Shown here: positions 7,026-37,675 of the stretch, in pieces | Numbering within the stretch: position 1 is the stretch's first letter | Layout: every line of letters starts with the position of its first letter | Notes under the pieces: generated by a model | What the model was told of the DNA's origin: nothing | Database searches by the model: none | The model's input: only the letters and a program-made list of their open reading frames with translations | Virus record (IMG/VR): IMGVR_UViG_3300037245_000995 | Coordinates: 1 to 40,973 of that record | DNA from: a virus | Length of the DNA stretch: 40,973 nucleotides | Strand: one strand, 5' to 3' | Translations under genes and position numbers: made by a program

Positions 7026-8381
7026 ATGGCAAAGGAAAAAGCGAAAAAGAAATCGAAGAAAAAAGTTATCAAGAAAACGCCGAAAAAGGTTTTGCCCGGA
7101 GAGCGTATCGAGTGCAAATACGGTAAGCTGGTAAATATCGGAGATTTAAAACCGAATCCGCAAAACCCAAACCTACATACTCCGGATCAGATCGACAAAC
7201 TGGCGGCTCTTATAACGCTTCACGGATGGAGATTGCCAATTATTGTATCGGAGCGAAGCGGGTTGATCGTTGCCGGGCATGGGCGGCTTATGGCAGCGGA
7301 AAAGATCGGGGTTGCAAAGGTACCGGTAGACTTCCAGAATTTCAAAGACGATGCCGAGGAAATGGCTGTTTTAATATCCGATAACGTGGTTGCTGAACTA
7401 TCGAGCTTTGACGGGCTAAAGATGGCCGAACTGCTGAATGAGCTTGACGCTTTGCCGGGCGTGGATCTGATGGCTTTTACTGCGTTGGATGAGGAACAAA
7501 TACTCGATTTCATTCATGGCCCGGATGGTTCAGGCGGCGAGGGTTTGACCGATCCCGATGCAGTGCCGGAAAACGTCAAAACCCGATGCAAGGCTGGCGA
7601 TCTGTGGCAGTTAGGTGAACATCGGCTATTGTGCGGCGATTCTACGAAAAAAGAGGACGTGACGCGACTGATGGCCGGAGAAAAGGCTGATATAACTTTT
7701 ACGAGCCCGCCGTACAATGCAGGAAAATCAGAATCGTTGTCGGGGAACACCCACACGAAAGGAAATAAATATATTGGCGGACACAACGACGATATGGACG
7801 GAGGTTCTTGGTTGTCTTTAATTCAAATATCCCTTGAAATGAGCCGAAAAGTAAGCAGTTTTCAATTTTACAATCTGCAGCAGTTGGCAGGGAATAAGAT
7901 AGAATTGATAGATTTACTTTATGCGAACAGGAAATACTTTGCTGATGTTGCAATATGGGACAAGCAGAACACCGCCCCGGCGATGGCAGAAAATGTTATG
8001 AATAGTCAATTTGAATATGTGTTTATATTCTCATGCGAAAAATCTCCGAATCGTGCCATAAGAACAGGCAACTTTCGAGGCAATGTTTCAAATGTTTATA
8101 GTGGTAATCCACAAAGGAACAATGAGTTCTCTGATACTCATGCGGCAACATTCCCCGTTGATTTCCCCGAACACTTCATATCTAAATTTGCCAACATAGA
8201 AAAAACAGTCTACGAACCATTCTGTGGAAGCGGTACAACAATAATCGCCTGTGAAAAGACAAACCGTAAATGCTATGGCATGGAAATAGACCCTCATTAT
8301 TGCGATGTAATCATAAAGCGTTGGGAAGATTTCACTGGCGAAAAGGCAAAGAAATTAAAACCGTCAAGACAAAACAAATAA
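7026..8381 (+). CDS. ParB-like domain fused to DNA methyltransferase
   Basis: The product is 451 residues. A Lys-rich N terminus is followed by a ParB-type domain at about 30-130 with the IVAGHGRLMAAEKIG motif near residue 80. The C-terminal half is an amino-methyltransferase of the class with the catalytic motif first: TSPPYN near residue 228 (motif IV) and EPFCGSGTT near 396 followed by CYGMEIDPHYCD (AdoMet-binding motif I and II). It would methylate adenine N6 or cytosine N4. No restriction partner is nearby, so protection from host restriction or control of packaging is more likely. It lies directly upstream of the terminase genes. Confidence 0.9.
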   Translation: MAKEKAKKKSKKKVIKKTPKKVLPGERIECKYGKLVNIGDLKPNPQNPNLHTPDQIDKLAALITLHGWRLPIIVSERSGLIVAGHGRLMAAEKIGVAKVPVDFQNFKDDAEEMAVLISDNVVAELSSFDGLKMAELLNELDALPGVDLMAFTALDEEQILDFIHGPDGSGGEGLTDPDAVPENVKTRCKAGDLWQLGEHRLLCGDSTKKEDVTRLMAGEKADITFTSPPYNAGKSESLSGNTHTKGNKYIGGHNDDMDGGSWLSLIQISLEMSRKVSSFQFYNLQQLAGNKIELIDLLYANRKYFADVAIWDKQNTAPAMAENVMNSQFEYVFIFSCEKSPNRAIRTGNFRGNVSNVYSGNPQRNNEFSDTHAATFPVDFPEHFISKFANIEKTVYEPFCGSGTTIIACEKTNRKCYGMEIDPHYCDVIIKRWEDFTGEKAKKLKPSRQNK

Positions 8382-34344: not shown

Positions 34345-34372
34345 TTGACGGACAATGAGGATGCGGTAAAAT
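34345..34372 (+). promoter_or_regulatory. Sigma70-like promoter for the tRNA cluster
   Basis: TTGACG (34345-34350), 16-base spacer, TAAAAT (34367-34372). It precedes the hairpin at 34407 and the tRNA at 34442, leaving a leader of about 60 bases. Confidence 0.65.
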
Positions 34373-34406: not shown

Positions 34407-34435
34407 GGCGGGTATGGCTTGTTGTCATACCCGCC
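34407..34435 (+). promoter_or_regulatory. Perfect 10-base-pair hairpin in the tRNA leader
   Basis: GGCGGGTATG (34407-34416) pairs with CATACCCGCC (34426-34435) around a 9-base loop. It stands between promoter and tRNA, 6 bases before the tRNA. The following bases GTTTATTG form only a weak T run, so it might act as terminator, attenuator or tRNA-processing signal. Confidence 0.6.
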
Positions 34436-34441
34436 GTTTAT

Positions 34442-34513
34442 TGCGGTGTGGAGAAGTGGTATCTCGTCGGGTTCATACCCCGGAGATCGCAGGTTCGAAT
34501 CCTGCCGCCGCTA
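34442..34513 (+). tRNA. Initiator-type tRNA-Met (anticodon CAU)
   Basis: A complete 72-base cloverleaf: acceptor 34442-34448/34506-34512, D stem GAGA/TCTC with loop AGTGGTA, anticodon arm TCGGG-TTCATAC-CCCGG with CAU at 34474-34476, T arm GCAGG-TTCGAAT-CCTGC and A73. Three features specific to bacterial initiator tRNAs are present: three consecutive G-C pairs at 29-31/39-41, an A11-U24 pair in the D stem, and no Watson-Crick pair at 1-72 (U-U). The sequence from the D stem to position 48 closely follows E. coli tRNA-fMet. CCA is not encoded, so the host enzyme must add it. Confidence 0.88.
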
Positions 34514-34515
34514 TT

Positions 34516-34591
34516 GCGGAGATAGTTCAAAGCTGGCCAGCGTGGAAGAACGGGAATGTCCAAGATGGGGGTTCGAGCCCCCCTCTCCGCT
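34516..34591 (+). tRNA. tRNA-like element with normal acceptor/T arm but abnormal core
   Basis: Acceptor GCGGAGA/TCTCCGC (7 pairs) and T arm GGGGG-TTCGAGC-CCCCC (5 pairs) are perfect, followed by T73. G1-C72, C2-G71 and U73 are glycine-type acceptor elements. GTTC (34525-34528) can pair with GAAC (34548-34551) as a D stem, but the loop is 19 bases and holds the palindrome GCTGGCCAGC, and only 15 bases remain before the T stem, too few for a normal anticodon arm. It starts 2 bases after the tRNA-Met. It may be a degenerate tRNA-Gly or a specialised minihelix. Confidence 0.55.
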
Positions 34592-37074: not shown

Positions 37075-37171
37075 CAAACATTTTTGTTTTCTTTTCTACT
37101 CCGAGGCCACGCCCGCCGCCTTATAAGTGGTAAGTGCGGGTATGCAATTATACTTTAATTTGGAGCGAATT

Positions 37172-37675
37172 ATGAACAGAGAAATTACATTTAGAGGTAA
37201 GCGGATAGATAACGGTGAATGGGTTGAGGGGTTTTATTTCCAAGCATACAACGATATTGGTGTTATGGAGGCCGAATATAAGAGCTACATCATAGAACCA
37301 TATATTTTTGTTATGTCTGGATTACAGCCGTTAAGTACTGATCGATTAGCAATAGCCGATTTTGTCGAAGTCCACCCCGAAACCGTAGACGAGAGTACCG
37401 GCATCAAGGACAAGAACGGGAAAGAGATTTATGAAACTGACATTGTTAAGTGTAGAGTTACAAATGCAGACGTGGGCGAAATAACAGGTGTTATAGCATG
37501 GGGTAAATATCGAATGGGCTTTGCCTTACAGGATTTAAGGGGCGAGGGCTTCGGTTTCGTTGCTTCAATCCGTAGCATGTGGCCTACAATGCCTCGTATT
37601 ACAGAGTTACCTAAAGGTGGTATTGATGGCGAAGTCGTCGGCAACATCCACGAAAACCCGAACCTATTAAAATAA
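37172..37675 (+). CDS. YopX family protein
   Basis: The product is 167 residues. The ATG at 37172 follows TTGGAGCG; the frame extends upstream but that part looks non-coding. Family signatures are an N-terminal TFRGKRIDNGEWVEGF and TGIKDKNGKEIYETDIVK near 90, with a final EVVGNIHENPNLL. YopX-type proteins are common in phages; the function is not established. The start context GGAGCGAATTATGAA is repeated at the next gene. Confidence 0.88.
   Translation: MNREITFRGKRIDNGEWVEGFYFQAYNDIGVMEAEYKSYIIEPYIFVMSGLQPLSTDRLAIADFVEVHPETVDESTGIKDKNGKEIYETDIVKCRVTNADVGEITGVIAWGKYRMGFALQDLRGEGFGFVASIRSMWPTMPRITELPKGGIDGEVVGNIHENPNLLK

Follow-up and report, generated by a model that had tools for sequence, protein, structure and literature searches.

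An initiator-type tRNA with an elongator-like anticodon loop in a virus record with tailed-phage genes, and the recurrence of its loop among viruses

The two main features of initiator tRNA are a mismatch at positions 1·72 and three G-C pairs in the anticodon stem, and formylation is assisted by G2:C71, C3:G70 and A11:U24 (PMC7949028). Moved into elongator tRNAMet, the two main features confer activity in initiation (PMC7949028, PMC8576571). The initiator is also attacked by toxins: enteric VapC enzymes cleave tRNAfMet between A38 and C39 (PMC4105405), and elongator tRNAMet is spared by a related VapC (PMC8522696). In a Shigella host that bears VapC, phages are reported to avoid tRNAfMet genes (PMC10264068), and phage tRNAs able to escape host defences have been described (PMC10264068, PMC11555353). 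Phage-borne initiator tRNAs are already known. Such tRNAfMet genes were reported in prophages of the phiLM21 group (PMC12429752), which resemble the locus studied here, by their description, in carrying tRNAfMet on a phage, and initiator-type tRNAs of phages are common in IMG/VR. The new part is a recurrent loop variant; in the available literature we found no description of a phage-associated class of initiators that recurs and has a loop of the elongator type.

The window, that is the whole stretch of 40,973 bases that was analyzed, is an IMG/VR virus record with tailed-phage genes. ARAGORN reported a single tRNA in it, Met(CAU), at 34441-34514, and Rfam RF00005 matched 34442-34513 with 61.6 bits, where the gathering score is 29 (Table 1). 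The tRNA is real. All four arms are intact, and the sole mismatch is the functional one at 1·72, a U1·U72 opposition in the acceptor stem UGCGGUG/CGCCGCU. The three marks named in the sequence-only reading of this DNA could all be read off directly: GGG/CCC at 29-31/39-41, A11-U24 in the D-stem GAGA/UCUC, and no Watson-Crick pair at 1-72. With G2:C71 and C3:G70, which assist formylation and are followed by G4:C69, all five initiator features of PMC7949028 are present. The gene does not encode CCA at its 3' end.

Table 1. Positions of the tRNA, its parts and neighboring elements in the window
Feature	Position	Strand	Basis
Initiator-type tRNA(CAU), 72 nt	34442..34513	+	ARAGORN, Rfam 61.6 bits, log-odds
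tRNA(CAU) acceptor	34442-34448/34506-34512; A73 at 34513	+	ARAGORN/Rfam
D-arm GAGA-AGUGGUA-UCUC, A11:U24 as in initiators	34451..34465	+	sequence, D-stem log-odds +17.4 bits
Anticodon arm UCGGG-UUCAUAC-CCCGG	34467..34483	+	sequence
Three G-C pairs of anticodon stem	34469-34471/34479-34481	+	sequence
Anticodon CAU	34474-34476	+	sequence
tRNA-like sequence, probable tRNA-Gly(UCC) relic	34516..34591	+	Rfam 36.8 bits, above gathering score
Promoter-like TTGACG-16-TAAAAT	34345..34372	+	10/12 match
12-bp terminator-like hairpin, tail GTTTATTG	34407..34435	+	fold z-score -4.3

The CAU tRNAs of the training set for scoring were drawn from the genomes of Bacillota, Bacteroidota and E. coli K-12 (two phyla plus E. 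coli). The K-12 gene labels are independent of the scored features; all other sequences were classed by their 1·72 pair. This classing and the range of taxa covered both limit the test. In this set, the initiator marks were present in 11/11 distinct bacterial initiators, but in 0/10 elongator Met and 0/5 Ile2 tRNAs, so that their presence in the window tRNA is far from chance for an elongator. Position-specific log-odds derived from these 11, 10 and 5 sequences favored the initiator class by 22.0 bits over elongator Met and by 54.6 bits over Ile2. The tRNA thus scored as neither of the two latter classes, and both determinants and score bear out the initiator-type identity assigned in the sequence-only reading. 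Under leave-one-out, true initiators scored from +37.6 to +58.3 and elongators from -20.7 to -69.5, which places the window tRNA between the groups and under the lowest true initiator. The D-stem (+17.4), the anticodon stem (+8.4) and the T-arm (+5.9) pointed toward initiator, the anticodon loop (-8.1) and acceptor positions 2-7/66-71 (-6.1) toward elongator. The shortfall relative to true initiators comes from the loop and from the greater part of the acceptor stem, both of which resemble those of an elongator.

Identity was 78% to E. coli tRNAfMet, 58% to elongator Met and 55% to Ile2. The middle part, earlier said to follow E. coli tRNAfMet closely, departs from it at loop positions 32 and 38; the elongator-like character of the loop and acceptor stem had been overlooked. 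The window tRNA shares with the E. coli initiators (metZWV/metY) a 1·72 mismatch, G2:C71, C3:G70, A11:U24, the three G-C pairs and A73. It differs from them in having U32/C38 instead of C32/A38 and U1·U72 instead of C1·A72, in an acceptor (2-7/66-73) of the Bacillota elongator Met type, and in the missing CCA. Its loop is UUCAUAC, whereas CUCAUAA is near-invariant in bacterial initiators, although we know of no requirement for the latter. In one Bacillota elongator tRNAMet (L229; GGCGGTG...TTCATAC...CGCCGCTA) acceptor positions 2-7/66-73, including U72 and A73, and the loop are identical to those of the window tRNA, with G1 swapped for U1. L229 is distinguished by G1·U72, by C11:G24 and by an anticodon stem in which the run of G-C pairs is incomplete. 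The window tRNA is a mosaic, with a body that follows initiator rules and a loop and remaining acceptor of elongator tRNAMet; by its sequence it is of initiator type, and it is not a copy of a host initiator.

Isolated phages offer several counterparts, a number of them unannotated. Initiator marks are found in the genomes of Pseudomonas phages D3, FBPa47 and PaMx74. The tRNA of PaMx74, an isolated phage, has the same UUCAUAC loop in a closely similar arm with one G·U in the stem, whereas D3, FBPa47 and Donnerlittchen differ from the window in that C33 (CCCATAA) replaces the near-universal U33. In PaMx74, where it is unannotated, and in Donnerlittchen, the gene for the initiator-type tRNA closely follows that for the large terminase. 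The closest phage tRNA is an unannotated tRNA-Met of Bordetella phage vB_BbrS_PHB09, which has 83% identity, U1·U72, GGG/CCC and UUCAUAC, and likewise no other tRNA nearby. It differs from the window tRNA by an elongator D-stem (GCTC/GAGC), U73 and an encoded CCA, and scores as an elongator overall (log-odds -19.4). An initiator-type tRNA with the canonical loop is present in Bordetella phage PHB04.

Searches for the anticodon arm showed that the variant loop recurs in many viruses; it was found in none of the bacterial initiators examined. The exact 20-nt arm CTCGTCGGGTTCATACCCCG was present in 2 of 84,980 bacterial and archaeal genomes. One of the two contigs (L131) is clearly phage-type, with HNH, a replication initiator, phage transcriptional regulators and a YopX-type protein; the other (L132) encodes a YopX-type protein and a phage-type methyltransferase. 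YopX-type proteins (phrog_8684/phrog_98) are thus encoded on both contigs and also in the window, at 37127-37675. Across 595 genomes from two bacterial phyla, the matches listed all read GGG-CTCATAA-CCC, save for one CTCATAT and two centre genomes that had been picked because they carry the variant loop. Among the listed viral tRNAs with an arm of the form TCGTCGGG-N-TCATA-N-CCCG, C32/A38 was found in 96/117 and another combination in 21/117 (18%). Host tRNAs at the borders of prophages may account for some of these viral matches, in which case the true rate of departure in phages would be higher, not lower.

A related arm with the same variant loop, CGGGTTCATACCCCGGAG, occurred in 64 IMG/VR stretches, with a non-pairing 1·72 in 56 of them. 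The 11:24 pair was A:U in about half of these tRNAs and mostly C:G in the others, and 36 of the 45 distinct well-formed members scored as initiators. The class exhibits mosaic tRNAs that join an elongator-like loop to differing sets of initiator marks. In 12 of 17 IMG/VR records checked, many of them fragments, the variant-loop tRNA was the only one. One identical lone tRNA was common to eight metagenomic contigs; it has U1·U72 and G11:C24, and its 3' half is nearly identical to that of the window tRNA.

The sequence-only reading had also described the tRNA as the only complete one in the window. This holds, with the qualification that a tRNA-like sequence begins two bases further downstream. 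ARAGORN gave no call there. Its acceptor stem and T-arm are perfect, the D-stem is GTTC/GAAC, and position 73 is U; the D-loop is enlarged to 19 nt and carries a palindromic 10-mer, GCTGGCCAGC. The D-stem and the T-stem lie only 15 bases apart, and enumeration of anticodon arms yielded no placement that fits. The acceptor pairs G1:C72, C2:G71 and G3:C70 are glycine identity elements, and phage matches were to tRNA-Gly genes only. The sequence is probably a relic of tRNA-Gly(UCC). We rejected a function for it, given the failure to fit an anticodon arm and the lack of another copy of its exact 23-mer in IMG/VR. The idea that initiator Met and Gly(UCC) form a dedicated pair, prompted by D3, four IMG/VR records and the window, was also rejected, since Gly(UCC) was present in 6/28 variant-loop and 5/41 control records (Fisher p = 0.33).

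A promoter of its own had likewise been proposed for the tRNA, and this proposal was not sustained. Sites as good as the promoter-like one numbered 6 in the region, against 3.1 (sd 1.9) expected by chance, and the terminator-like hairpin sits between this site and the tRNA. The hairpin may be an attenuator, an upstream terminator or a leader structure; an Rfam L20-leader match at this place was dismissed as a chance match (18.6 bits versus 58.7). Hairpin and tRNA anticodon arm have an 8-mer, TCATACCC, in common, perhaps by chance. Judged by structural proteins, the nearest relative is G001 (portal identity 54%), which shares head and neck genes with the window. No tRNA was found in G001 despite these common genes, which marks the tRNA(CAU) gene as accessory.

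We propose that the phage initiator-type tRNA supplements or replaces host tRNAfMet and that its variant loop is kept, most likely, for nuclease resistance, a reading to which we give a probability of about 0.5. The tRNA may have originated from an elongator converted to an initiator, or by recombination; the success of the elongator-to-initiator transplant (PMC7949028, PMC8576571) makes such a mosaic biochemically credible. We infer that the gene would be expressed and the transcript processed by host enzymes (RNase P, CCA addition), charged with methionine and formylated, and that it would enter the ribosomal P site. The resulting supply of initiator during infection would be most useful if host tRNAfMet were scarce or cut by a tRNA-targeting defence. 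Raised initiation, or replacement of a damaged host initiator, as suggested in the sequence-only reading, is plausible in view of VapC toxins and of defence-evading phage tRNAs. Nuclease resistance is the likeliest reason for the variant loop because the changes fall at the 38/39 bond cut by VapC. U32/C38 would alter this bond and could confer resistance to initiator-specific VapC nucleases, comparable to the nuclease-evading phage tRNAs whose anticodon loops are altered close to a known site of nuclease cleavage (PMC10264068).

Other observations weigh against the proposal. E. coli elongator Met is spared by VapC even though its loop is the canonical CUCAUAA, so nuclease specificity may not depend on the loop alone, and the stem matters too. 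U32/C38 could come from an elongator ancestor without selection. The score under that of any true initiator and the tRNA-free nearest relative also have to be counted against it. More tentatively, we consider that a recurrent phage class arose from elongator tRNAMet, which became an initiator by loss of the 1·72 pair and gain of the three G-C pairs, and that the retained loop resists VapC-type nucleases, allowing translation to start while host tRNAfMet is destroyed. Equally tentative, and taken jointly with resistance to nucleases, is the notion that A11:U24 was also gained in about half of this class, making it a natural counterpart of the laboratory elongator-to-initiator conversion.

A simpler explanation is ordinary dosage, in which the tRNA tops up initiation on phage messages and the loop variant is neutral. 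The complete set of initiator determinants fits this, as do the ATG start codons in 50 of 59 chosen window ORFs and the canonical loop in those 96 of 117 listed viral initiator-type arms; with most arms canonical, phage initiator tRNAs as a whole can be explained without nuclease evasion. Since dosage accounts neither for the repeated occurrence of U32/C38 across many unrelated phages nor for its absence among the examined bacterial initiators, we regard it as possible but doubtful. The neighboring relic and the hairpin directly before the gene mean that the window tRNA could itself be decaying, a non-functional remnant of a phage tRNA cluster like the adjoining tRNA-Gly-like sequence that lost its anticodon arm; the missing CCA and the absence of tRNAs from the nearest relative point the same way. 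Decay would, however, hardly have left four intact arms, 61.6 bits and a single, functional mismatch at 1·72, and G2:C71, C3:G70, A11:U24 and the three G-C pairs would not survive it, making a remnant unlikely. Use in elongation, as a tRNAMet of the elongator kind, would agree with the match of loop and acceptor 2-7/66-73 to Bacillota L229, with the negative log-odds of these parts, and with the elongator score of the PHB09 tRNA despite U1·U72 and three G-C pairs. We consider it quite unlikely, because Watson-Crick pairing is impossible at U1·U72, a feature that excludes initiators from elongation, and because D-stem, anticodon stem and total score (+17.4, +8.4 and +22.0) all favor the initiator.

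Integration of the phage into a host tRNAfMet gene, which the phage copy would then replace, has been described in actinobacteriophages for tRNAs of other isotypes (PMC10865867). It is very improbable here: neither tyrosine integrase (PF00589) nor serine recombinase (PF00239) gave a match in the 41-kb record, which may be incomplete, and many bacteria have several initiator genes. A tRNA-Ile2, with CAU read after lysidine modification by TilS, would account for the anticodon and for nothing else; with 54.6 bits in favor of the initiator, and with a 1·72 mismatch plus three G-C pairs in no Ile2 sequence seen, we give it hardly any credence.

If phages keep nuclease-resistant initiator tRNAs, as the proposed nuclease escape implies, translation initiation would be a contested step in the conflict between phage and host, and toxins that cut tRNAfMet, VapC among them, would acquire an anti-phage role open to direct test. 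The Shigella host that bears VapC-LT2 reportedly has phages that avoid tRNAfMet genes (PMC10264068), whereas the window phage encodes an initiator-type tRNA. The variant-loop tRNAs would be a counter-case to such avoidance, taking another route in which an altered tRNA is encoded.

The 21-kb right half of the window had no nucleotide match in GenBank phages, and portal relatives in GenBank phages, among the matches listed, were below 25% identity. The window genes include terminase, portal, protease, major head protein, tape measure, an SbcC-like nuclease, a RecT-like protein and methyltransferases. Positions 7026-8381 encode a single protein of 451 aa in which a ParB-like domain is fused to a DNA methyltransferase.
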